A DNA stretch of 64,000 nucleotides. Source: Nitrospira tepida. Lineage in GTDB: Bacteria > Nitrospirota > Nitrospiria > Nitrospirales > Nitrospiraceae. The position numbers and the translations under genes were made by a program. Positions within the stretch are counted from its first letter, which is position 1. Each line of letters starts with the position of its first letter. Positions 2,201 through 59,449 of this stretch are shown in pieces. The stretch lies in assembly GCF_947241125.1 (NCBI RefSeq), contig NZ_OX365700.1, positions 868,001 through 932,000 on the forward strand, read 5' to 3'. The notes under the pieces were generated by a model, which ran no database searches, was not told the DNA's origin, and was given only the letters and a program-made list of their open reading frames with translations.

Positions 2201-2734
2201 TCAGAAATGCAGGTATTTCAGAGCGGCGGCGCAGAGGATGATGAAGAGGCCCAGGACCAGCCCCAGTTTTTGAAACGGGACCGGTTCTTCGTACTGCTCC
2301 TGGCGCTCCTCGGCATCCTCGTCCCCCGAGGCTTCCGTCTTGAAGACCACGGTGTAGAGGTAGAGGGTCAGGACGACCAGCACCAGCGAGAGCTTGATGA
2401 AGAAGATTGTCAGGTACTTCGCATTGTGGGCGACCCCGCCGGTCTCTCCCAGTTGGGCCACCATCATCTTGTTGATGAAATGGAGATTCAGGCCGCCGGT
2501 GAACAGGATGACGACCAGCACGATGCCGATGATCTTCTTGTACTGGCGGTAGAAGATATCGGCCAGCGGCTTGACGTATTCCTTGGGGACCGATTTCTGG
2601 AGGCCCGGCGTGACGACCATGACGAGAAAGGCCAACCCGCCGATCCAAATGACCGCCGACGCCAGGTGCAGCCAATGGTTGACGATCGGCAGGAGGGTGT
2701 TGAGGTCGGTGGCGATGTTCGTGAGGGCGGTCAT
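2201..2734 (-). CDS. CopD-like four-to-five-helix membrane protein
   Basis: The 177-residue protein has hydrophobic segments near residues 15-45, 75-95, 110-135 and 155-175. The first carries WLHLASAVIWIGGLAFL, with a histidine and tryptophan pattern typical of the CopD/DUF membrane family; the VVTPGL that follows is also family-like. A charged loop (GDEDAEERQEQYEE) precedes the last helix. I chose ATG 2734; an upstream TTG at 2746 lies inside the heptad repeat and is less likely. CopD proteins are linked to copper import, but this short form is often uncharacterised, and no copper gene is beside it. The 5' end abuts the repeat arm at 2741-2770. Confidence 0.7.
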   Translation of the reverse strand: MTALTNIATDLNTLLPIVNHWLHLASAVIWIGGLAFLVMVVTPGLQKSVPKEYVKPLADIFYRQYKKIIGIVLVVILFTGGLNLHFINKMMVAQLGETGGVAHNAKYLTIFFIKLSLVLVVLTLYLYTVVFKTEASGDEDAEERQEQYEEPVPFQKLGLVLGLFIILCAAALKYLHF

Positions 2735-2740
2735 GGAGTT

Positions 2741-3212
2741 CGTCAAGCGTCAATCGTCATTGGTCAAACGTGGAAGACTTGCCAGCGGAGGCTTGACATC
2801 GTCCGTGCGAGCCGATTTGCCGATGCTGCGAATGTAGCCGTTCACCAATTGAATAAAGCGCAGTAGCTTCGATCGGAGTGTGTCATGCCCTTGGTCATCC
2901 AGGTAGCCCAAGTCTTTGCAAGTGATCAGGTGGTCCAACAATTCGTAAGCTGATCCCCTCGCGATACGGCAGAACTGGACGTTCTCTTTGTAATGAAATC
3001 GTCCATATCCTTCTGCGATGTTGGAGGTGAGTGAAATCGAAGCAGCACGAATCTGTTGCGCAATGACGTATTGCTCTTGCTTCGGGAGACGGGCGGCCAG
3101 GTTGTACAATTCCCTCCTGATGTCTCTCCCGACGATCCACACATCCAGGTCCTCGAAGGACGTAATGGCCTTCACGCGGCGCCTATTGACGGATGACGAG
3201 TGACGATTGACG
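2741..3212. mobile_element. IVS-like element: heptad inverted repeats enclosing an S23/IVP gene
   Basis: Left arm 2741-2770 reads as CGTCAAG, CGTCAAT, CGTCATT, GGTCAAA. Right arm 3186-3212 is the inverse type: TTGACGG, ATGACGA, GTGACGA, TTGACG. They can pair to close a long stem around the gene at 2750-3175. The left arm supplies the last codons and stop of that gene, and the right arm lies ten bases before its start and touches the stop of the radical SAM gene (3213). The design resembles 23S rRNA intervening sequences, which are stem-closed insertions whose loop may encode an S23 protein; here it is intergenic. Calling it mobile is inference. Confidence 0.6.
2750..3175 (-). CDS. four-helix-bundle protein, S23/IVP family
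   Basis: The 141-residue product belongs to the four-helix-bundle family first described from 23S rRNA intervening sequences (TIGR02436/PF05635). Diagnostic features are SFEDLDVWIVGRDIRRELY at the start, then IAQQIRAASISLTSNIAEGYGR, then FCRIARGSAYELLDHL and the late helix LLRFIQLVNGYIRSI. Start is GTG 3175, which gives the usual family N-terminus. The C-terminal TNDD and stop are read from the heptad repeat arm. Family members form pentamers; Avd proteins of diversity-generating retroelements are relatives. No reverse transcriptase is in the window. Molecular function is unknown. Its place inside an inverted repeat shared with gene-less copies elsewhere makes a role in element maintenance or movement plausible, but this is inference. 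Confidence 0.85.
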   Translation of the reverse strand: MKAITSFEDLDVWIVGRDIRRELYNLAARLPKQEQYVIAQQIRAASISLTSNIAEGYGRFHYKENVQFCRIARGSAYELLDHLITCKDLGYLDDQGHDTLRSKLLRFIQLVNGYIRSIGKSARTDDVKPPLASLPRLTNDD

Positions 3213-4598
3213 CTAGAATTTGAACACCGGCGCGTCGTTCCCGAAGCGCTTCTTGCGCAGCTCTTCCATCAGCTCCACGGTCACGATGGGCAGGCCCTGT
3301 TCGCGCGCGTGCCGTTCGACGCCTTTCTTCACCATGGCGCGAAGGAAGTAGGGAATCCGGCTGAGACGGAGTTGCGCCGCCTCATCCCAGGCGACTTCGG
3401 ACTCTTCCGGCGTGTTGAAGGCCACCTGAACCTTCTCGCCTCCCTTCGGGGTGTAGAGACACCATTGATCCTCGTCGAGCCAATCGCCGTGATCGACATA
3501 GGGGCGCGCGCGGCAGCCGCCGCAGATCTCGCTGTATTCGCAATCGCCGCATCTCCCTTTCAGATGGGGATAGCGGAACGAGTCGAAGATCGGCGAGCGC
3601 TCCCACAGGTCCACGAAGCTGCTCTCCCGCACGTTGCCGGCGGAGAGCGGCATGTAGGGGCAGGGGGTCAGCTCGCCGTTGGGGGTCACCCTGGCATAAT
3701 TGGTCGCGGCCAGGCAGCCGCCGCCCATGTAGCCGGTCGCCTTGGTGAGCGGGGAGTTCGGGTCCTTCTCATACGCCAACCGCTTGAAATGCGGAGCGCA
3801 GCGGGCCCGCACCAGCATGTCCTTATATTTGTCCTGGCAGTCCACCAGATAGGCGAGGACCTCTTCATATTGGGTCGGCGTGATATCGGTCAGCTCTTCG
3901 CCCCGGCCGGTGCAGACCATGAAGAAGATGTTGACGACCCTGGCCCCCAATCCATGCGCCCAGTCGATCACCTGCGGCAGTTCCTGATAGTTCATCGGCT
4001 GCGCGCTGAAATGCACCTGGAACTGAAGTCCGTTGCGCTTGCAGGCTTCGATGCCGGCCACGGCCTCTTCCCAGGCGCCCGGCACGCCCCGGAACCGGTC
4101 GTGCTTCTCCTTGTCGAGGGAGTCGATGCTGATGCCCACGCCCATGACGCCGATCTCCACGAGCGTCTTGGCCATCCGGTCGTCGATCAGCATGCCGTTG
4201 GTGCCAAACACGACGATGAATCCCTTGGCGACCGCGTGCCGCGCGATATCGAGAATGTCCGGGCGGACCAACGGTTCGCCGCCGGTGATGACGAGCAGGC
4301 AGCCGCGATTGACCTCCGCGATCTGGTCGATCAAACGGAAGGATTCCTGGGTCGTGAGTTCGTCGGACGCGCCGCCGGCCTTCGTCGTGGCATCCAGGTA
4401 GCAATGCGCGCACTTGAGGTTGCAACGCTTGGTGAGGTTGAGCGCGATCAGGTAGGGCTTGAAGTCATCGACGGTGCGCCCGTCGCCGGGACCGGGGGTC
4501 GGCAAGGGGCCGGACATGAACTTCTGGATCTGCCCGGCAAATGACCCAAGCTGGTCGGCCAAACCGGAGATATTCAGAATCGGCAGCGATTTACCCAT
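3213..4598 (-). CDS. radical SAM/SPASM protein (AhbD/NirJ-like) with C-terminal PCP_red domain
   Basis: The 461-residue protein has a radical SAM core with CNLKCAHC (C59, C63, C66) for the 4Fe-4S cluster, TGGEP, and the NirJ/AhbD-like GISIDSLDKEKHDRFRG. A SPASM-type cysteine-rich region follows (about 310-390, including CGDCEYSEICGGC), binding auxiliary clusters. The tail, about 405-455, is a PCP_red domain (AQLRLSRIPYFLRAMVKKGVE...) like the C-terminus of protochlorophyllide reductase subunit B. AhbD and NirJ act on tetrapyrrole side chains, so a haem or haem d1-like reaction is possible; substrate is not proven. ATG 4598 is chosen; a TTG at 4625 lies in the repeat, and neither has a clear ribosome site. 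The next gene upstream shares the PCP_red domain. Confidence 0.85.
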   Translation of the reverse strand: MGKSLPILNISGLADQLGSFAGQIQKFMSGPLPTPGPGDGRTVDDFKPYLIALNLTKRCNLKCAHCYLDATTKAGGASDELTTQESFRLIDQIAEVNRGCLLVITGGEPLVRPDILDIARHAVAKGFIVVFGTNGMLIDDRMAKTLVEIGVMGVGISIDSLDKEKHDRFRGVPGAWEEAVAGIEACKRNGLQFQVHFSAQPMNYQELPQVIDWAHGLGARVVNIFFMVCTGRGEELTDITPTQYEEVLAYLVDCQDKYKDMLVRARCAPHFKRLAYEKDPNSPLTKATGYMGGGCLAATNYARVTPNGELTPCPYMPLSAGNVRESSFVDLWERSPIFDSFRYPHLKGRCGDCEYSEICGGCRARPYVDHGDWLDEDQWCLYTPKGGEKVQVAFNTPEESEVAWDEAAQLRLSRIPYFLRAMVKKGVERHAREQGLPIVTVELMEELRKKRFGNDAPVFKF

Positions 4599-4619
4599 GT
4601 CTTGATTATTGAGAAAAAG

Positions 4620-4761
4620 CGTCAATCGTCATTCGACATCCGTCATTCGCCAGGAACCGGGGGGATGGACTCAGAACACCATACTTCACTTCCGCGATTG
4701 ACGATCAAGGTTGGAGCCTGACGCTCGTCCCTTTTGACGATTGCCGGTTGACGAATGACGC
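4620..4761. repeat. heptad inverted repeat (TGACG class)
   Basis: Left arm 4620-4647 has four 7 bp units (CGTCAAT, CGTCATT, CGACATC, CGTCATT). Right arm 4734-4761 has four inverse units (TTGACGA, TTGCCGG, TTGACGA, ATGACGC). Both arms are 28 bp and pair in register. The right arm ends at the base before the stop codon of the Usp fusion gene. The centre of about 86 bp holds no gene. Confidence 0.75.
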
Positions 4762-8718: not shown

Positions 8719-8861
8719 CGTCAATCGTCATTGGTCAATCGCAAAAAAAGAGAATCGTCATGCGTCAATCGTCAAGGGTCAATCGTGTAGACCTTGTCCG
8801 GTGAGGCCTTGCGTGTCCTTCCTACGTTTGACAAATGACGCATGACGAATGACCATTGACG
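8719..8861. repeat. heptad inverted repeat with doubled left arm
   Basis: Left units occur twice: 8719-8739 (CGTCAAT, CGTCATT, GGTCAAT) and 8755-8782 (CGTCATG, CGTCAAT, CGTCAAG, GGTCAAT). The right arm 8827-8861 has five inverse units (TTTGACA, AATGACG, CATGACG, AATGACC, ATTGACG) and ends at the base before the ubiE stop codon. The first left unit begins seven bases before the start codon of the radical SAM gene. The doubled left arm suggests growth by duplication or nested insertion. Confidence 0.7.
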
Positions 8862-9686
8862 TTATTTCGTCCCGATGTGGATCGCCACGATGCCGCCGGT
8901 CAGGTTCCGATAGGTCACCTCGCCGAATCCGGCCTGCCGCAATCGCTCGCACAGGGTCTCCTGATCGGGAAAGGTCCGGATCGAGGCCGGCAAATACTCG
9001 TAGACGCCGGTGGTGTCGTGCGCCACCATCGTGCCGACCTTGGGGAGCAGGGTGAACGAATACCAATCGTAGAGGCTGCGCAGCCAAGCTCGATTGGGAT
9101 GGGAAAACTCCAGACAGACGAACCGGCCGCCTGGCTTGAGCACCCGCTGGATTTCCTGCAAGGCTCGTTGAAGGTCGCCGACGTTCCTCATGCAGAAACC
9201 GGTCGTCACCGCGTCGAAACTTCCGTCCGGAAAGCTGAGATGTTCGGCGTTCACCTCCATGCAGGTGATCCGGTGCCGGCGACCTTGTCGGGCGACCTTT
9301 TTCCGGCCTTCTACCAGCATCGCATGGTTCAGATCGGCGGCGATGACGTGGCCGCCCGGCTGCAAGCGCGATTCAATCAGCAGCGCGAGATCGGCCGTGC
9401 CGGCGCCGATATCCAATATATAACGCGGCTCCGCCAAGACCTCGCCGCTACGGACGCCGCAGGCGCTGCCGCCTGGCGGTATTATCACGTCCAGCACTTG
9501 CCGCTTCCAGCGATGATGAAGCCCGAAGCTGAGGACCGTGTTGTTCAGGTCGTACCAGCGCGCGATGGCCGTGAACATCCGCTGCACGGCCTGCTCGCGA
9601 GCCGATCCCGACCAGCGGGAGACGGTCTGTGCCGGAGGCGAAGACGTCTCTTGCGCAGAAGCGGGCTGCTCTTCAACTTTCAGCAT
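8862..9686 (-). CDS. ubiE: demethylmenaquinone/2-methoxybenzoquinol methyltransferase
   Basis: The 274-residue product is a class I SAM methyltransferase of the UbiE/MenG family. It carries the signatures AIARWYDLNNTVLSFGLHHRWKR, the SAM loop ILDIGAGTADLALL, and the C-terminal CLEFSHP and YEYLPASIRTFP. UbiE performs the C-methylation that finishes menaquinone (or the ubiquinone ring step), acting on membrane-bound substrate. In a Nitrospira-like organism menaquinone is expected. The first 30 residues are variable and polar. The ATG 9686 start is plausible but unsupported by a strong ribosome site. The quinone made here would be the electron acceptor of complex I encoded at 44.7-59.9 kb. Confidence 0.9.
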   Translation of the reverse strand: MLKVEEQPASAQETSSPPAQTVSRWSGSAREQAVQRMFTAIARWYDLNNTVLSFGLHHRWKRQVLDVIIPPGGSACGVRSGEVLAEPRYILDIGAGTADLALLIESRLQPGGHVIAADLNHAMLVEGRKKVARQGRRHRITCMEVNAEHLSFPDGSFDAVTTGFCMRNVGDLQRALQEIQRVLKPGGRFVCLEFSHPNRAWLRSLYDWYSFTLLPKVGTMVAHDTTGVYEYLPASIRTFPDQETLCERLRQAGFGEVTYRNLTGGIVAIHIGTK

Positions 9687-20612: not shown

Positions 20613-23144
20613 ATGTCCAAGATCAAGAAGAGCGAGACGACAAAAACCAGCGCGCCCGGTTCCAAGGAAGCATCCCCGTCGTCCGCGCCGACCGCGCAGG
20701 ATTTTGAGAAGCTCGGCCTGTTTTATTTGGGCAGGCCCTTCGATCTCGCCACCAAGACTCCGTTGCCAGGCTGGCTCCTCTATGATTCCAAGGATCTGGT
20801 GACCCATGCCGTCTGCGTCGGCATGACCGGAAGCGGCAAGACCGGCCTCTGCCTGGCCTTGCTTGAAGAGGCGGCGATCGACGGCATCCCGGCCCTCATC
20901 ATCGATCCCAAGGGCGATCTCGGCAACCTCCTCCTCACGTTTCCCGAATTGCGTGCGCAGGACTTCGAGCCCTGGATCAACGAGGACGAGGCCCGCAAGA
21001 AGGGACTCTCGCCAGCCGACTATGCCGCGAAACAGGCGGAGACTTGGAAGAACGGGTTGGCGAAGTGGGGACAGGATGGGGAGCGGATCGCCCGGTTACG
21101 GGCGTCGGCCGATTTTGCGATCTACACGCCGGGAAGCCACGCGGGCCTGCCGGTGTCCATCCTCAAGTCCTTCGCGGCTCCGGAGGAGGGGATTCGCGGC
21201 GAAGCGGAATTGCTGCGGGAACGCATCAACACCACAGCCACGAGCCTGCTGGGCTTGCTGGGCATCGAGGCCGACCCCATTAAGAGCCGCGAGCATATTC
21301 TGCTGTCCACCATTCTCGATGTTGCCTGGCGAAAGGGGCAGGACCTGGACCTCGCGGCCTTGATCCACCAGATCCAGGCGCCGCCGGTTTCCAAGGTGGG
21401 AGTGATGGATCTGGAATCGTTCTATCCCGCGAAGGACCGGTTCGCCCTGGCGATGCAACTGAATAATCTGTTGGCGGCGCCGGGGTTTGCATCCTGGATG
21501 GAAGGGGAGGCGCTGGAGCTGTCGTCGCTGCTCTATACGCCGGAGGGAAAGCCGAGAATGGCGATCATGTCGATCGCGCATTTGAGCGAGGCCGAACGGA
21601 TGTTCTTCGTCTCGCTCCTGCTGAACCAAGCGCTCGGCTGGGTCAGGGCCCAATCCGGCACGACCTCGCTGCGCGCCCTGATCTATATGGACGAGATCTT
21701 CGGCTACTTCCCGCCGGTTGCCAATCCGCCGTCAAAAGGTCCGTTGCTGACCCTGTTGAAGCAGGCGAGAGCCTTCGGCGTTGGGGTGGTGCTGGCGACG
21801 CAGAATCCCGTGGACCTGGACTATAAGGGGCTGGCGAACACCGGTACTTGGTTTATCGGGCGGCTCCAGACGGAGCGGGACAAGGCCCGGGTGCTCGAAG
21901 GGCTTGAAGGGGCGTCGGCAGGATCGGGACAGCGGTTCGATCGCAAACGGATGGAGGAAACATTGGCCGGGCTGGGCAATCGGATCTTTCTGATGAACAA
22001 CGTTCACGAGGACGAGCCGGTGATCTTTGAGACCCGCTGGGCCCTGTCGTACCTGCGCGGTCCCTTGACGCGGACCCAGATCAAATCGCTGATGGACCCG
22101 GTGAGGCGGCAAACGTCAAGCGTCATGCGTCAACCGGGTGGAAAGGCTGAATCCGACTCGTTACGAATGACGAATGACGGATTACGAATGACGGCATCAC
22201 GTCCCGTTCTCCCTCCCGGCGTTCCGCAATATTTCGTCCCGATGCGCGGAACTCGGCCGAGCGGCAGTCAGCTCGTCTACCGCCCGATGGTCCTCGGTCT
22301 TTCGCAGATCCGGTTTGCCGATGCCAAGAAGGGGCTGGAAGCCATCCATGACGAAGCCCATGTGATGCCAGCCGACCGGGCTGCGGCAACCCTGGACTGG
22401 GAGCGGAGTGAGGCGATCTCGATCGTGCAGGACGACCTTGAACGAGAGCCGAACTCTGAGGCACGGTTCGAGGAGATCGCCACAGCGGCAGGCCAGCCGA
22501 AGAGTTACGACGAATGGAAAAGGGACTATTCGAACTGGCTCTTCCGGACCGCCAAGCTCGATCTCTATCGGAGTCCAAGGCTGTCCGAGCTCTCCAAGCC
22601 CGGTGAGTCCGAGCGAGACTTCCGGGTCCGGTTGCAGCAGGTGGCGCATGAGCGTCGGGATGCGGCCGCCGACAAGCTCCGCCAGAAATACGCGCCGAAG
22701 ATTGCCGCGCTGCAAGAGCGTCTCCGCCGCGCGGAACAGGCCGTGGAGCGAGAAAAGGAACAGGCAAAGCAGACCGGGCTTCAAACGGCCCTGTCGGTCG
22801 GTGCGACAATCCTCGGCGCGTTCATGGGCAGGAAGAGCATCTCCGCCACCACGATCGGCAAGGCGACCACGGCTCTCGGCAAGGCCGGCCGGACGATGAA
22901 GGACATGAAGGATGTCGGGATGGCGCAGGACAATGTGGCGGCGCTGCAACAGCAACTGGCCGACCTGGAAGCTCAGTTCAAATCGGAGACCGACCAGCTC
23001 TCGGCTTTTGATCCTCAGTCCGAGCCGTTGGAGACCCTGGCGCTCCGGCCCACCAAGACCAACATTGCTGTGAAACTGGTCGCGCTGGCCTGGCTGCCCG
23101 ACTGGCAGGACGCGCAAGGGGCGCTGACTCCTGCCTGGGAATAG
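20613..23144 (+). CDS. HerA/VirB4-like ATPase (DUF87-type) with long coiled-coil tail
   Basis: The 843-residue protein has Walker A VGMTGSGKTG (70-77) and Walker B ALIYMDEIFG (about 356-362), followed by VVLATQNPVDLDYKGLANTGTWFIGRLQTE, the hallmark of HerA/FtsK-like pumping ATPases. A charged coiled coil covers about 680-730 and 770-800, and a glycine-rich stretch (VGATILGAFMGRKS) sits between. ATG 20613 is chosen since GGAGG precedes it by six bases; an ATG 15 bp earlier lacks this. Around residues 500-527 lies a heptad repeat element read in frame (see 22114-22193). Substrate may be DNA or protein. No nuclease partner is adjacent, so a defence role is only a possibility. Confidence 0.8.
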   Translation: MSKIKKSETTKTSAPGSKEASPSSAPTAQDFEKLGLFYLGRPFDLATKTPLPGWLLYDSKDLVTHAVCVGMTGSGKTGLCLALLEEAAIDGIPALIIDPKGDLGNLLLTFPELRAQDFEPWINEDEARKKGLSPADYAAKQAETWKNGLAKWGQDGERIARLRASADFAIYTPGSHAGLPVSILKSFAAPEEGIRGEAELLRERINTTATSLLGLLGIEADPIKSREHILLSTILDVAWRKGQDLDLAALIHQIQAPPVSKVGVMDLESFYPAKDRFALAMQLNNLLAAPGFASWMEGEALELSSLLYTPEGKPRMAIMSIAHLSEAERMFFVSLLLNQALGWVRAQSGTTSLRALIYMDEIFGYFPPVANPPSKGPLLTLLKQARAFGVGVVLATQNPVDLDYKGLANTGTWFIGRLQTERDKARVLEGLEGASAGSGQRFDRKRMEETLAGLGNRIFLMNNVHEDEPVIFETRWALSYLRGPLTRTQIKSLMDPVRRQTSSVMRQPGGKAESDSLRMTNDGLRMTASRPVLPPGVPQYFVPMRGTRPSGSQLVYRPMVLGLSQIRFADAKKGLEAIHDEAHVMPADRAAATLDWERSEAISIVQDDLEREPNSEARFEEIATAAGQPKSYDEWKRDYSNWLFRTAKLDLYRSPRLSELSKPGESERDFRVRLQQVAHERRDAAADKLRQKYAPKIAALQERLRRAEQAVEREKEQAKQTGLQTALSVGATILGAFMGRKSISATTIGKATTALGKAGRTMKDMKDVGMAQDNVAALQQQLADLEAQFKSETDQLSAFDPQSEPLETLALRPTKTNIAVKLVALAWLPDWQDAQGALTPAWE
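22114..22193. repeat. heptad inverted repeat inserted in frame within a gene
   Basis: Left units 22114-22134 (CGTCAAG, CGTCATG, CGTCAAC) and right units 22159-22193 (CGTTACG, AATGACG, AATGACG, GATTACG, AATGACG) have the same form as the intergenic copies. They are translated as SSVMRQPG and SLRMTNDGLRMTA within the HerA-like protein. The frame stays open across the element. Confidence 0.75.
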
Positions 23145-27078: not shown

Positions 27079-27139
27079 CGTCATTCGTCACGCGCAGGAG
27101 GATCTCCTACGGTTGACGGTTGGCCATTGACGGTTGGCG
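27079..27139. repeat. heptad inverted repeat, short copy
   Basis: Left units 27079-27092 (CGTCATT, CGTCACG); right units 27112-27139 (GTTGACG, GTTGGCC, ATTGACG, GTTGGCG). The centre is only about 19 bp. It lies between the hybrid kinase and the UPF0114 gene. The arms are more eroded than in other copies. Confidence 0.6.
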
Positions 27140-34060: not shown

Positions 34061-34094
34061 CGACCTATCCACGGCGGGACGAAGGGGCGACAAT

Positions 34095-34189
34095 CGTGAT
34101 TCGTCACCCGTCAATCTGGGAGGTACTCGACACCGAGCACCGGCTCTCCTCTCGCCGGACGATTGACCTATGACGGTTGACGCCTGACG
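34095..34189. repeat. heptad inverted repeat
   Basis: Left units 34095-34115 (CGTGATT, CGTCACC, CGTCAAT); right units 34162-34189 (ATTGACC, TATGACG, GTTGACG, CCTGACG). The right arm ends nine bases before the stop of the gene at 34199. It lies between convergent genes. Confidence 0.7.
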
Positions 34190-34198
34190 GCATTCGAA

Positions 34199-36864: not shown

Positions 36865-38673
36865 TCAGGACTCTTTCGCCGCCTGCCTGAGCGCCTCCAC
36901 GGTCTTGGATGCGAGACCGGCTTCGCGCAATTCTTCGTCCGATGCCTGCGTGACCGCTTCTGCGCTGCCGAACTGCTCGAGCAGCCGCTTGCGCGTGATC
37001 TCGCCGATACCGATGACCTGATCAAGCTTCGACGAGGTCAAAGCCTTGCTGCGGAGCGTCCGGTGGTATTTGACGGCAAAGCGATGGGCTTCGTCCCTGA
37101 TACGCTGGACCAGATGGGTGGCGGGCGAGGTCGGGTGCAGAATGATCGGGTTCTTGCGGCCAGGGAGGAAGATGCGCTCTTCCTTGTCGCCGCGCGCTTT
37201 GGCGAGCCCGATGATCGGTAATCGAGACAGGCCGACCTGCCTGAGCCCGTCGATGGCGGCGGCCAATTGGCCGAGCCCGCCGTCGATCAGGATCAGGTCC
37301 GGTTGCGGCAGCTCCTCCGCCTGGCCATACCGGCGCATGACGACTTCTTGAATGCTGGCAAAGTCGTTGGCGCCCTGCACTGTCTTGATCCGGAACTTGC
37401 GGTAGTCCGATTTTTTCATCTCGCCCTGCTCCCAGACCACCATCGACCCGACGGACTGGTCGCCGAGGATGTTGGAGATGTCGAACCCTTCGATCCGGTT
37501 GGGGATCTCCTCCAGCCGGAGCAATCGCTTCAGCTCGGCGGTGGCCTGCCGGTCGGTTTCCTCATCCCGCAGATGCTCGACCAGGGCCGCCAGCGCGTTT
37601 TCTTCCGCCAACTGAACAAGCTGGTGCTTCGTCCCTCGTTCCGGCGCCACGATGCGGACCGTGTCTCCTTTTTTCTCGGAGAGCCAGGTCTCAAAGAGGG
37701 CGGCCTCCGGCAGGGGGCAGGGAATCAGCAGCTCCTTGGGAGGCTGGCCGTCCTTGTTGTAGAACTGCTCGATGGTCGAGACCACCAGCTCTTCATCGGG
37801 CGTGTTGGCGCCGGTCGGCCAGTAAAAGTCCTTGCGGCCGATCAGCAGGCCTCCCCGCACGAAGAGCAGTTGCAGGTCCACCGCCGCGCCGCGCCGCGCC
37901 AGTCCGATCACGTCCTGATCCACGGAGGCGATTTGGGTGATTCGTTGCTTCTCCAGCGTCCGTTGAATCTTCAACAGCCGGTCGCGGAGCCTGGCGGCCT
38001 CCTCGAATTCCTCCCGCTCGGCTGCCGCCTCCATCTGAGCCCGCAGGTCGTCCAGGAGTTCGCGGTCCCGGCCTTCCAGAAACTGCCGGACCTGCTTCAC
38101 GATCTTGTGATAGTCCTCTTTGGTCTGGTTGCCCGTGCAGGGCGCCATGCAACGTTTGATCTCGAACTCGATGCAGGCCCGCTCTGCGGTTCCGTCGATG
38201 TCGATCTTGCAGGTCGCCAGCGGAAAGGCCCGCTTGATGATTTTCAAGGTTTCGCGGAGCGCCCCGGCGGGCGTGTAGGGGCCGTAATAGAGCGCGCCGT
38301 CCTTCTGGACGCGACGGACGATCGAGAAGCGCGGAAAGTCCTCTTTGATCGGCAACCGCAGGTAGGGGTACTGTTTGTCGTCGCGCAGGACGACGTTGAA
38401 GCGCGGACGATGCCGCTTGATCAGGTTGCTCTCAAGGATCAGCGCTTCCAGCTCCGATCGGGTGACGATGGTTTCAAGGTCCGCCACCTGATCGACCAGC
38501 AGGGCGGTCTTCGGGTTGTGGTCGCCGCTTCGCTGAAAATAAGACCGGACGCGGTGGGCCAGCACGGCGGCCTTGCCGATGTAGAGGATATCCCCCCTGG
38601 CGTTTTTGAACAGGTAGACCCCGGGCTGAGCCGGCAGGTGGTCGAGTTTGGATTGCAGGACGTCGGTCGTCAT
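36865..38673 (-). CDS. uvrC: excinuclease ABC subunit C
   Basis: The 602-residue protein is UvrC, which makes both incisions in nucleotide excision repair. Domains: GIY-YIG nuclease (about 12-95, PGVYLFKNARGDILYIGKA), the cysteine region CMAPCTG, the UVR motif for UvrB contact (about 195-235, DDLRAQMEAAAEREEFEEAARLRD), the RNase H-like second nuclease with DISNILGDQSVGSMVVWEQG and LILIDGGLGQLAAA, and two helix-hairpin-helix motifs at the end (IGIGEITRKRLLEQFGSAEAV). Length is normal. ATG 38673 directly follows a heptad repeat arm (38675), leaving no ribosome site. UvrA is encoded at 11.3 kb; UvrB is not in the window. Confidence 0.95.
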   Translation of the reverse strand: MTTDVLQSKLDHLPAQPGVYLFKNARGDILYIGKAAVLAHRVRSYFQRSGDHNPKTALLVDQVADLETIVTRSELEALILESNLIKRHRPRFNVVLRDDKQYPYLRLPIKEDFPRFSIVRRVQKDGALYYGPYTPAGALRETLKIIKRAFPLATCKIDIDGTAERACIEFEIKRCMAPCTGNQTKEDYHKIVKQVRQFLEGRDRELLDDLRAQMEAAAEREEFEEAARLRDRLLKIQRTLEKQRITQIASVDQDVIGLARRGAAVDLQLLFVRGGLLIGRKDFYWPTGANTPDEELVVSTIEQFYNKDGQPPKELLIPCPLPEAALFETWLSEKKGDTVRIVAPERGTKHQLVQLAEENALAALVEHLRDEETDRQATAELKRLLRLEEIPNRIEGFDISNILGDQSVGSMVVWEQGEMKKSDYRKFRIKTVQGANDFASIQEVVMRRYGQAEELPQPDLILIDGGLGQLAAAIDGLRQVGLSRLPIIGLAKARGDKEERIFLPGRKNPIILHPTSPATHLVQRIRDEAHRFAVKYHRTLRSKALTSSKLDQVIGIGEITRKRLLEQFGSAEAVTQASDEELREAGLASKTVEALRQAAKES

Positions 38674-38674
38674 A

Positions 38675-38760
38675 CGTCAACCGTCATTCGTCAACCGTAA
38701 GAATAACAGGAACAGAGCGTCCATTTCTTCCGGTTGACGTGTGACGAGTGACGGTTGACG
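38675..38760. repeat. heptad inverted repeat between uvrC and dapF
   Basis: Left units 38675-38695 (CGTCAAC, CGTCATT, CGTCAAC); right units 38733-38760 (GTTGACG, TGTGACG, AGTGACG, GTTGACG). The left arm starts one base after the uvrC ATG, and the right arm ends six bases from the dapF stop. The 37 bp centre is unique. Confidence 0.75.
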
Positions 38761-38766
38761 GCGGCT

Positions 38767-39636: not shown

Positions 39637-39658
39637 CTGTCCGCTCCTTGTCAAAAAG

Positions 39659-39893
39659 CGTCAATCGTCAAGCGTCACCCGTCAATCGGAGGAGAGAAAG
39701 TACTTGGGAAAGGAGGAGATCGTAACGGGGGAAGGCGTCAATCGTCAAAGGTCAATCGTCAATCGAGTGGAGAAGGTACCGCGTTGATGGTAAGGATGGC
39801 AACCCTATCAATCTGGGGAATTGCTGTTAAGCCGACGCTTGACTGATAGCGAATGACGCTTCACGAATGACGAGTGACGGCTGACGCTTGACG
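39659..39893. repeat. heptad inverted repeat, large copy with doubled left arm
   Basis: Left blocks 39659-39686 (four units) and 39736-39763 (CGTCAAT, CGTCAAA, GGTCAAT, CGTCAAT) are followed by a right block 39838-39893 of eight inverse units, some decayed (AATGACG, CTTCACG, AATGACG, AGTGACG, GCTGACG, CTTGACG). The right block is five bases from the stop of the VOC gene. It resembles two elements nested in one another. Confidence 0.7.
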
Positions 39894-39898
39894 AGGCG

Positions 39899-40297: not shown

Positions 40298-40313
40298 CGC
40301 GCTGTCTCCATGC

Positions 40314-40408
40314 CGTCATTCGTCACTCGTCAGCCGTCAATCGCAAGAAGATCAACGCGCCTCGATGCCCCATCCTCACGTTTGACGCATGACGGTTGAC
40401 GCATTACG
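40314..40408. repeat. heptad inverted repeat between VOC and GNAT genes
   Basis: Left units 40314-40341 (CGTCATT, CGTCACT, CGTCAGC, CGTCAAT); right units 40381-40408 (TTTGACG, CATGACG, GTTGACG, CATTACG). The last right unit contains the stop codon of the GNAT gene (40404-40406). Confidence 0.75.
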
Positions 40409-42954: not shown

Positions 42955-43005
42955 CGGGATGTTCAGGAAGGCTGCCAGCCTGGTGATCGCCGCGTCCCAA
43001 ACTGT

Positions 43006-43100
43006 CGTCATGCGTCAAGCGTCATCCGTCAGTCGTCCGGGAAGAGGGAATGCCGTACCAGGCCTTGAGCACCTTCCCGATCGACGATTGACGAATCACG
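43006..43100. repeat. heptad inverted repeat
   Basis: Left units 43006-43033 (CGTCATG, CGTCAAG, CGTCATC, CGTCAGT); right units 43080-43100 (ATCGACG, ATTGACG, AATCACG). It lies between the convergent M50 protease gene and the membrane protein at 43115. Confidence 0.7.
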
Positions 43101-43114
43101 ATGGTCGTCCGTTG

Positions 43115-55002: not shown

Positions 55003-55024
55003 GCTGATTCGTATTCCGTTCAAC

Positions 55025-55100
55025 CGTCAATCGTCATTCGTGAGGTGATCTCCGGATCGCATGCTCGGACCCTGCTCCGAGTGACGAATGACCATTGACG
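55025..55100. repeat. heptad inverted repeat between nuoF and nuoG
   Basis: Left units 55025-55038 (CGTCAAT, CGTCATT); right units 55080-55100 (AGTGACG, AATGACC, ATTGACG). The right arm ends six bases before the nuoF stop codon. This is the TGACG class, inside the operon. Confidence 0.7.
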
Positions 55101-56423: not shown

Positions 56424-56439
56424 CGTAAATGTTGTGAAC

Positions 56440-56505
56440 CGTTAATCGTTATTCGTTAAACGTCCACGAACGCGGCGTTGAACGGTTCACGTTGAACGGT
56501 TCACG
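56440..56505. repeat. heptad inverted repeat, drifted TTAACG/TTCACG class
   Basis: Left units 56440-56460 (CGTTAAT, CGTTATT, CGTTAAA); right units 56478-56505 (TTGAACG, GTTCACG, TTGAACG, GTTCACG). The pentamer differs from TGACG (G to A or C at one position), but the 7 bp period and arm orientation are the same. The stop codon of nuoE (56487-56489) is inside the right arm. Confidence 0.65.
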
Positions 56506-57023: not shown

Positions 57024-57041
57024 GCGGCTGTCTTGCGATCT

Positions 57042-57126
57042 CGTTAATCGTTAGACGTTAACCGTTAAACAAGAAAAGGGTCTCCTTAGCCGCTTGCGGT
57101 TAACGCTTCACGAATCACGGTTAACG
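57042..57126. repeat. heptad inverted repeat, TTAACG class, between nuoCD and nuoE
   Basis: Left units 57042-57069 (CGTTAAT, CGTTAGA, CGTTAAC, CGTTAAA); right units 57099-57126 (GTTAACG, CTTCACG, AATCACG, GTTAACG). Both arms are 28 bp. The right arm ends three bases before the nuoCD stop. Confidence 0.7.
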
Positions 57127-57129
57127 GCC

Positions 57130-58881
57130 TCACCTATCACATTCCCCCATGACGATATCGTACGTCCCGAAGATCGTGATGATGTCCGAGATCAGATAGC
57201 CACGGGCCATGTGGTCGAAGGCTCCCATGTGGATGAACGACGGCGCGCGGATCTTCATCCGGTAGGGGCGCGGGCTCCCGTCGCTGATGAGAAAAAATCC
57301 CAATTCTCCCTTGGGCGCTTCGGTGGCGCAGTAGGTCTCGCCCTTCGGCGGCTTGAACCCCTGGGTAAAGATAATGAAATGGTGGATCAGGCTTTCCATG
57401 TCCCGCATGACCTTTTCCTTGGGCGGCGGGATCACGGTCGGGCTGTCGGCCATGATCGGTCCTTGAGGCATCTGGTCCAGACATTGGCGGATGATCCGGC
57501 AACTCTGGCGCATCTCCTCCATCCGGATCCAATAGCGGTCGTAGGTGTCGCCGTTCTTGCCGACCGGCACCTCCCAATCGACCTTGTCGTAGGCGCCGTA
57601 GGGTTCGTACTTACGGACGTCGTAATCCACGCCCGAGCCCCGCAAGGTCGGTCCGGTCAGGCCGAAGCTGATCGCGTCTTCGGCCGAGATCACGGCCACC
57701 CCCTTCGTGCGGCCGAGCCAGATCCGGTTGTTCATGATCAGGCTGTCGTATTCGCGAATATGGTCGGGAAACGTGTCGAGAAAGGCCTTCAGGCGCGCGA
57801 CCAGGTCCGGCGTGAAATCGGCGTCCACGCCGCCGATCCGGTAATAGTTCAGCGTGAGGCGCGCTCCGCAGAGCTTCTCGAACATGTCGAGCAGCACCTC
57901 GCGCTCCCGGAAGGTCCAGAAAAAGACCGTCATCGCCCCGATGTCCAGCGCCTGGGTGCCGAGCCAGAACAGATGGCCGATGATCCGCTGCATCTCGGCC
58001 ACGATCGTGCGGATGTACTCGGCCCGTTCCGGGACGGTGATCCCGACGAGCTTTTCCACCGCCCGCACATAGGCATAGTTGTTGGTCATCGAACAGACAT
58101 AATCCAACCGGTCGGTGTGGGGAATCACCTGCATATAATGGAGGCCTTCGGCCAGCTTCTCGACCCCGCGGTGCAGGTAGCCCAGGTCCGGCGTCGCTTT
58201 GACGATGCGTTCGCCGTCGAGTTCGAGCACCACCCGCAAGACCCCGTGGGTGCTGGGGTGTTGAGGACCCATGTTCAACAGCAGCTCTTCCGTCCGGCGC
58301 GAGGATGCCGGCGCTTCTGCGTTTGCAAGAAAGGCCTGTTTCTCCTCGGCCGGGATTTCTTCGGCCAGCTCGGCAGGCGGCTCGTCCAGGCGGGGAATGA
58401 AGGGGAACGACCCGCGCCACCCCCGTCCTTCGGTCGGGAAGTCCTTGCGAAGCGGGTAGCCCTCGTCGTAATCCTCCGGCATCAGGATGCGGCGGAGGTC
58501 CGGATGCTGTTCGAAGACGATGCCCATGAGGTCGTAGACTTCCCGTTCCATGAACTCGGCTCCGCGCCAGATGCCCGTCACCGAGGGGAGGGCCGGGCTG
58601 TCTTCCGTCACGCGGGCCTTGACCCGGATACGGTGCCGGTGCGGCAGGGAAAGAAAATGGTAAATCACCTCGAACCGCTCGGGGGCGTCCGGATAATCCG
58701 CGGAGCAAATATCCGTGATATGGTCGAACGCGAGGGCGGGATCGTCATGAAGAAAGCGGCCGATATCCACGATCCGGTCGGCGCGCACCTGCGCTGACAA
58801 GTCGCCGCGCGTCTCATCCTCCTGCACCGCGAGCACTGCGTCGGGGAATTGGGTCTTCAATCGTTCGAGCACCGGATGCAT
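57130..58881 (-). CDS. nuoCD: NADH-quinone oxidoreductase fused subunits C/D
   Basis: The 583-residue protein joins NuoC (about 1-175; RFEVIYHFLSLPHRHRIRVKA, MEREVYDLMGIVFEQHPDLRRILMPEDYDEGYPLRKD) to NuoD (about 195-583; MGPQHPSTHGVLRVVLELDGE, the quinone-site His; YLHRGVEKLAEG, DYVCSMTNNYAYVRAVEKL, FVFFWTFRE, GGVDADF). The fusion is common in several phyla. NuoD is the usual methylation substrate of MidA homologues. ATG 58881 is chosen; a GTG at 58887 lies in the repeat arm. It is flanked by repeats. Confidence 0.95.
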   Translation of the reverse strand: MHPVLERLKTQFPDAVLAVQEDETRGDLSAQVRADRIVDIGRFLHDDPALAFDHITDICSADYPDAPERFEVIYHFLSLPHRHRIRVKARVTEDSPALPSVTGIWRGAEFMEREVYDLMGIVFEQHPDLRRILMPEDYDEGYPLRKDFPTEGRGWRGSFPFIPRLDEPPAELAEEIPAEEKQAFLANAEAPASSRRTEELLLNMGPQHPSTHGVLRVVLELDGERIVKATPDLGYLHRGVEKLAEGLHYMQVIPHTDRLDYVCSMTNNYAYVRAVEKLVGITVPERAEYIRTIVAEMQRIIGHLFWLGTQALDIGAMTVFFWTFREREVLLDMFEKLCGARLTLNYYRIGGVDADFTPDLVARLKAFLDTFPDHIREYDSLIMNNRIWLGRTKGVAVISAEDAISFGLTGPTLRGSGVDYDVRKYEPYGAYDKVDWEVPVGKNGDTYDRYWIRMEEMRQSCRIIRQCLDQMPQGPIMADSPTVIPPPKEKVMRDMESLIHHFIIFTQGFKPPKGETYCATEAPKGELGFFLISDGSPRPYRMKIRAPSFIHMGAFDHMARGYLISDIITIFGTYDIVMGECDR

Positions 58882-58969
58882 CGTCACTCGTTGTTCGTTA
58901 ATCGTTAATCGGAGCTTCCAACCGAGGGCTGTTTCTTAGCGATTCACGTTTCACGATTCACGTTTCACA
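58882..58969. repeat. heptad inverted repeat, TTAACG/TTCACG class, between nuoB and nuoCD
   Basis: Left units 58882-58909 (CGTCACT, CGTTGTT, CGTTAAT, CGTTAAT); right units 58942-58969 (ATTCACG, TTTCACG, ATTCACG, TTTCACA). Left units begin right at the nuoCD ATG, and the right arm ends at the nuoB stop codon (58970). The first left unit is still the CGTCA type. Confidence 0.7.
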
Positions 58970-59449
58970 TTATTTCACGAACACCTTCTCCCGCTGAATC
59001 TTCTCCTGCAACTTCAACAGGCCGTCGATGAGCGCTTCGGGCCTCGGCGGGCAGCCCGGCACGTAGACGTCGACCGGCACGATCTGATCGACGCCCTGCA
59101 CGACGCTATAACTGTTGTAATGGTTCCCCGAGGTGGCGCAGGACCCCATCGAGATCACGTAGCGGGGTTCGGCCATCTGGTCATAGATCCGGCGGATGAC
59201 CGGCGCCATCTTGCGGGTCACCGTGCCCGCGACGATCATCAGGTCGGACTGGCGCGGAGAGGCGCGGAAGACCCCGGCCCCGAACCGGTCGATGTCGTAC
59301 CGGGAGGAGACGGAGGCGATCATTTCAATCGCGCAACAGGCCAGGCCGAACGTCATGGGCCAGAGCGCGGACTTCCGGGCCCAGCCGATCAGCGCGTCCA
59401 GGTTCGTGGTAATGATGTTCGGCTCGAACTGCCGCTCTAAGACGCTCAC
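58970..59449 (-). CDS. nuoB: NADH-quinone oxidoreductase subunit B
   Basis: The 159-residue protein is NuoB, holding the terminal cluster N2 next to the quinone. The four cysteines are present as CCAIEM (tandem Cys), GSCATSG and [51 protein letters not shown] is the conserved core. Start is GTG 59449. The stop abuts the heptad repeat at 58969. Confidence 0.96.

Follow-up and report, generated by a model that had tools for sequence, protein, structure and literature searches.

The S23 proteins, or 23S rRNA-intervening-sequence proteins (IVP, PF05635), have been without a known function for some thirty years and are known mainly from within rRNA genes; to our knowledge, no catalytic or transposase-like activity has been described for them. 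The closest described systems to the locus presented here are the intervening sequences (IVSs) of 23S rRNA in Leptospira and Coxiella, inserts of ~430 bp that carry an S23 open reading frame (ORF) between terminal inverted repeats. In Coxiella the ORF is preceded by tandem GACAGAT heptads and the insert is closed by a 28-bp terminal stem, an arrangement that was not generalised; IVSs are processed by RNase III, and the Coxiella S23 protein is probably not expressed in vivo (PMC4990558). IVP genes have also been described as scattered inserts in the rRNA of CPR bacteria (PMC11270868) and are listed within cas loci, one instance lying between cmr3 and cmr2 in Pleurocapsa (PMC3936711).

Heptad repeats have been described separately, and are over-represented in many genomes according to work cited in two papers (PMC4692102, PMC4679880). 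Rehm et al. (2015) counted 186 GGGAATC arrays in Xanthomonas campestris, among which convergent pairs occurred 70 times, and reported GGGGA(C/T)T arrays in Nostoc, proposing both as possible G-quadruplex elements; the available part of that paper draws no tie to S23 or to mobility (PMC4692102). The genomes of marine Beggiatoaceae contain abundant intergenic TAACTGA heptads, which differ from the arrays described below in being reported mainly as direct repeats (PMC4679880). A search of the open-access literature, which leaves preprints and most subscription journals outside, found no paper that links S23 genes with heptad arms.

Here we describe an S23/IVP gene of Nitrospira tepida enclosed by inverted heptad arrays, which we call arms. 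The element shares with the rRNA inserts its protein family, its terminal inverted repeats and its approximate size, but it lies between protein genes, dispersed gene-less copies share its unit, and the arms recur family-wide. MITEs and REP/RAYT elements are likewise short, dispersed and intergenic with inverted ends, whereas here the ends are defined by their period, the partner gene is S23 rather than a transposase or RAYT, and target duplication is inconsistent. The Avd and bAvd proteins of diversity-generating retroelements (DGRs) have the fold of S23, but the elements described here have inverted heptad arms of their own, and in the loci read closely no adjacent reverse transcriptase or template/variable repeats were noticed. 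Closely related plasmids that differ in the presence of such an element (below) point to S23 elements as a class of mobile DNA that is very widespread and hitherto unrecognised.

The window element and its gene-less relatives

The window, by which we mean the whole stretch of 64,000 nucleotides that was analysed, belongs to a genome of 4.73 Mb in one contig. Its S23/IVP gene occupies 2750..3175 on the minus strand, starts with GTG and encodes 141 aa, and in profile searches the product matches PF05635 (23S_rRNA_IVP; E 4e-29, 101.4 bits against a cut-off of 33.8) and TIGR02436 (four helix bundle protein; 95.8 bits, cut-off 24). This is the sole ORF of the element, with no match to any other family, and no recognised transposase was found within the element. 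The whole element (2741..3212, minus strand) sits between an rSAM gene (3213-4625, minus strand) and a copD-like gene (2201-2736, minus strand), and all three genes share one direction. The rSAM product is a Radical-SAM/SPASM protein with a C-terminal PCP_red domain, for which NirJ2 and heme b synthase are the closest named models, both with scores below cut-off.

Each arm holds about four units of the heptad TGACGNN, read as CGTCAnn in the left arm and TGACGnn in the right one. The left arm (2738..2771; CGTCAAG CGTCAAT CGTCATT GGTCAAA) is the 3' arm when the gene is read in its own direction, and five bases separate it from the copD-like ATG (2736); the right or 5' arm (3183..3214; TGACGGA TGACGAG TGACGAT TGACGCT) abuts the rSAM stop codon (3213). 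The initial annotation had described arms that close around the gene and supply its last codons, and both observations hold: the inverted repeat 2743-2771 / 3189-3217 is 29 nt long, 83% complementary, with 417 nt between its arms, and scores 19 against a maximum of 13 in 300 shuffles, while the last five codons (TTG ACC AAT GAC GAT) and the stop TGA are left-arm sequence. The RNA fold of the element has a z of -1.5.

The AlphaFold2 model of the window protein (pLDDT 92) is a predicted four-helix bundle with the fold of XCC0516 from X. campestris (2GSC; TM 0.78/0.93), and it also matches 2RLD and structures of Avd, both that of Bordetella phage (4DWL) and those within DGR ribonucleoproteins (8UB7 and others). 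Both 2GSC and 2RLD, solved relatives, contain five chains each, and 2GSC was published, by its title as cited in PMC3936711, as assembled from five four-helix bundles. Among 51 IVP members, 34 match the Pfam family bAvd, and L10, W13, Q41, S48, N52, E55, G56, R59 and E78 are invariant; those from Q41 to E78 could have a structural role.

Matches to TGACGNNTGACGNNTGACG with at most two mismatches number 54 in the window, against 0.22 expected, and group into about ten hairpins of identical polarity (CGTCAnn left, TGACGnn right). These copies are armed but gene-less, as had been claimed, and 2750-3175 is the only PF05635 match of the genome that falls within the window. They lie at 4615..4761 (arms 4615-4653 and 4733-4761), 8753..8864 (arms 8753-8786 and 8824-8864), 22103..22195, 34088..34191, 38658..38765, 40311..40408, 43002..43101 and 55016..55100, together with a degenerate hairpin at 27079..27136 and a compound element of two left arms and one right arm at 39654..39895. 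Three further gene-less hairpins have another unit, CGTTAAn / GATTCAC, of the family of a second IVP gene (L002, at 3,143 kb): two are of the CGTTAAn type (56431..56504 and 57039..57127) and one is CGTTAn / GATTCAC (58880..58974).

The genome has five PF05635 matches, and all five lie between period-7 inverted arms with a different unit in each. Two of these genes (L004 and L005) are truncated or match weakly, with heptad arms still on both sides. Exact unit pairs of the TGACG type (CGTCAnnCGTCA) occur 362 times in the genome, against 3 for the reversed control, alongside a single IVP gene of that type. In a 1.23-Mb sample, the 50 kb to either side of the IVP gene hold TGACG arms at 26 per 100 kb and the remainder at 4.9, an approximately five-fold difference with a binomial p of 6e-10, although the arms are paired and the evidence is thus weaker than this p suggests. 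L002 and L005 likewise have gene-less hairpins that share their unit, as probably does L004. GCACTCA / TGAGTGC hairpins (for example at 1,527.6, 1,538.1, 1,675.2 and 3,198.4 kb) have no cognate IVP gene in the genome, and IVP genes with the GCACTCA unit exist in relatives (L293, L301).

The gene-less copies of this genome have only their arms in common with the IVP element, and their behaviour is that of a family united by its ends, not that of simple internal deletions. The proposal that a gene-bearing parent gave rise to gene-less derivatives thus stands in part: the arms are common to both and a Nostoc plasmid supplies one deletion derivative (below), while simple deletion of the gene finds no support in the window genome, where the arms alone are shared.

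Periodic arms across the S23/IVP family

Arms were detected by the lag-k self-identity of flanking sequence, which is independent of the sequence of the unit, and were called where a period of 7, 8 or 9 gave at least 17 of 28 matches on both sides; lags of 4, 5 and 10 served as controls. A first alignment of diverse IVPs proved too variable, and a narrower one was used for the genome scan. Two-sided arms enclose 107 of 152 IVP loci (70%). They were found at 26/35 loci in Nitrospiria and at 58/78 loci of a wider set that spans ~25 phyla (among its members are Xanthomonas, Bacteroidota, Firmicutes, Planctomycetes and CPR bacteria), the latter chosen by a conserved peptide and by closeness to XCC0516 and not a balanced sample of the family. 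Forty extra Nitrospiria loci were added as a check on best-match selection: second matches per genome had two-sided arms in 14 of 19 cases and weak-scoring matches in 9 of 20, with six more one-sided. The ~30% of loci that fail the two-sided test are commoner among weak-scoring genes. In one archaeal contig a period-8 arm is clear, on a single side.

None of 29 ParE control genes from the same Nitrospiria genomes has two-sided arms, positions shifted by 0.9-1.3 kb have them in 1-3 of 72 cases (1-4%), and the control lags give 0-1% of loci. The expectation in the initial annotation that IVP genes elsewhere, and not unrelated genes, would be flanked by period-7 inverted repeats was thus borne out, and periodic arms are the rule for most members of the family. 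As in IVSs, an S23 ORF lies within terminal inverted repeats; in the strict sense the elements are not IVSs, since none of 115 IVP loci lies in 23S rRNA when probed with E. coli 23S. The same count rules out the arms as a feature of rRNA only.

Each element family has its own unit, and what the arms share is periodicity and not sequence. The left arm and the reverse complement of the right arm score 15.4 within loci and 7.9 between loci, and the order of units pairs in register better than a permuted order, a small effect (p 7e-7) beyond unit identity. Both the mode and the median are five units per arm: of 194 arms, 80 have five, 37 have four and 34 have six, against mostly two to three in random stretches. 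Most loci have a period of 7, a minority 8 and a few 9; period 8 was seen at L010, L011, L287, L291, L300 and L303, and period 9 at L023, L029, L054 and L072. On a poorly resolved protein tree the period clusters, with 10 changes against a shuffled mean of 16.3 (0/200 as low), and among proteins less than 60% identical those that are more alike have more similar arms (Mantel r 0.17, 0/2000), a coupling of unit and protein clade that common descent partly explains. IVP genes mostly share the orientation of their neighbours (49/64 upstream, 57/71 downstream), and the 5' arms are alike in one orientation even between unrelated loci. At least one element, that at RNR genes (L240), runs against its neighbours.

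Some of the published heptads belong to such arms. The hitherto unexplained GGGAATC heptads of the literature are present at the Xanthomonas ortholog of XCC0516; here they were found around the IVP genes of Xanthomonas vasicola, Luteimonas and Rhodanobacter. In X. vasicola the gene stands between accB and accC, which were recognised from the sequence itself. A GGGGAGT-type array, closely similar to the published GGGGA(C/T)T of Nostoc, flanks an IVP gene on a Nostoc plasmid. The IVP genes listed in cas loci may likewise be insertions of S23 elements, because an element that inserts between the genes of operons would be expected to produce such cases.

Presence and absence at orthologous sites

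The clearest case is plasmid C of Trichormus variabilis, in which an IVP gene lies inside a conjugation operon, and plasmids 97.5-98% identical to it lack exactly 428 bp, that is, the arms and the gene. The empty site reads AAAAAGTAATTAACAAA and the filled site AAAAAGTAAT-AAATCAGAATTCAG...CTGAGTTCTTCTTT-GTAATTAACAAA, from which the 428 bp read as a 423-bp element (arms plus gene) and a 5-bp duplication, GTAAT. Since near-identical plasmids occur with and without arms plus gene, insertion was precise, and on this comparison of sequences the S23 gene and its arms move as a unit. The copy at the Trichormus insertion site is shortened on a Nostoc plasmid (L244), the one deletion derivative observed, and in Scytonema the Trichormus element recurs with one arm shorter by two units. 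Where one insertion is present in two genera (L238 and L239), the lengths of one arm are exactly two units (14 bp) apart, and arms therefore gain or lose whole units.

Among eight related cassettes of Nostoc, three have an IVP element at one junction and one has an IVP element with a different unit at a second junction; at a third junction several have gene-less hairpins, some of them nested, and one plasmid has none. In L241 and L254 (first junction) a hairpin is nested within a hairpin of the same family, and the inner one in L254 holds an unrelated palindrome. Nostocales plasmids (L248-L251 and ~25 other records) also contain a family of gene-less elements ~180 bp long, whose interior is conserved and whose arms are those of the Trichormus IVP element. 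In Calothrix one copy of this family, of 184 bp, splits rarA, which is intact in two relatives. No target duplication was seen at this rarA site, and at the Nostoc junctions a duplication is ambiguous; with GTAAT in Trichormus, the several junctions examined do not agree on a target duplication of fixed length.

The junction that holds the window element was compared at 30 loci in 29 relatives, with ~80-83% identity in the rSAM gene. It is empty in six of the 30 (L168, L170, L172, L177, L179 and L189), with the stop and start codons overlapping or adjacent, and in many others it holds gene-less hairpins whose unit differs by genome, where the window genome has its IVP element. From these sequences the rSAM/copD spacer of Nitrospiraceae (L166-L195) appears to be either an insertion hot spot or a site of rapid unit turnover. 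The preference for gene junctions may reflect selection against gene damage. Precise presence and absence between near-identical flanks, and multiple copies with shared ends in one genome, are the general marks of transposable elements, and both were found here.

Proposed mode of movement and rival explanations

In our view S23/IVP genes probably represent the coding member of a kind of small mobile element (~0.4-0.5 kb) that is very widespread, has periodic inverted ends and would be moved by way of a protein ring and its arms. The ends are inverted arrays of about five tandem units that keep their period (7, or 8 or 9 in certain clades) and not their sequence. Such elements insert precisely, mostly into tight stop/start junctions and along the direction of their neighbours, and gene-less elements with the unit of the parent spread in the genome, several-fold denser near the parent gene. 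Intervening sequences of rRNA that carry an S23 ORF would then be copies that landed in rRNA, one niche among others.

Five subunits and five units per arm suggest that S23 forms a ring that binds one unit per subunit. Because duplex DNA has a helical repeat of 10.5 bp, with which a spacing of 7 bases is at odds, the simplest geometry is an unwound strand, either RNA or ssDNA, that wraps the ring in the way the RNA repeats of TRAP do. We thus infer a ring of five four-helix bundles in which each subunit would hold one unit of an unwound arm, a five-unit arm would wrap the ring once, and the two complementary arms would bring the ends of the element together for excision or copying by an enzyme. 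That S23 is itself the moving part, a pentameric ring that reads the ends by their period with one subunit per unit and so leaves the end sequences free to change, is quite possible, if somewhat short of an even chance, and the idea that S23 recognises the arms and is behind the movement is plausible enough to deserve the first test.

Much of the same evidence could be read at the level of RNA, with the arms forming a stem in the transcript that RNase III processes as it does in 23S IVSs (PMC4990558), S23 binding RNA as Avd does, and a cellular reverse transcriptase copying the product into DNA. The fold match to Avd and the DGR ribonucleoprotein, the bAvd matches, the prevailing co-orientation with neighbours and the one-way similarity of the 5' arms are all consistent with this, and we hold it as a tentative possibility towards which we lean less than we lean away. 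No reverse transcriptase was noticed beside the elements read closely, at least one element (that at the RNR genes) is antisense to its neighbours, and the fold of the window element is modest by its z. It is unlikely that S23 is only a passenger, a trapped cargo or regulator within MITE-like heptad hairpins that an ordinary transposase or host enzyme moves. That gene-less hairpins far outnumber IVP elements, share nothing with them but arms, and left a 5-bp duplication at one site would suit such a passenger, but arms with a shared period and unshared sequence recur round S23 in ~25 phyla and track its clades, and ParE genes have no such arms. We know of no transposase with such periodic ends.

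A purely regulatory reading, in which S23 is a regulator, the hairpins are its binding sites copied by other means and its own arms autoregulate the gene, would account for intergenic hairpins that abut stop and start codons. We consider it very improbable, given that the orthologous junction has no hairpin, or hairpins of different units, among relatives, that a gene-less copy disrupts rarA, and that elements are precisely present or absent on near-identical plasmids. It is scarcely credible that the heptads are neutral tandem repeats which arose by slippage in spacers where S23 genes landed by chance. The over-representation of heptads in many genomes and the variation of arm length by whole units do agree with slippage, which nevertheless leaves unexplained the inversion, the single arm on each side of the gene, the matching of units within a locus and a 428-bp insertion that carries both arms and the gene; as a sole cause, slippage or chance is ruled out by the controls and the plasmid empty site.

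For S23/IVP, a small protein with a crystal structure available for a relative, the arms suggest a possible ligand in its own heptads and a possible role in mobility. The finding also joins puzzles that have stood apart, namely the S23 ORFs in 23S rRNA, the heptads of Xanthomonas, Nostoc and other genomes, and the co-occurrence of IVP and cas genes (PMC3936711). If S23 drives mobility, the recognition of ends by spacing rather than by sequence would be a new principle, and if S23 is the moving part, a single class would cover the S23 ORFs of rRNA, the heptads of Xanthomonas and Nostoc, and hundreds of intergenic hairpins per genome.
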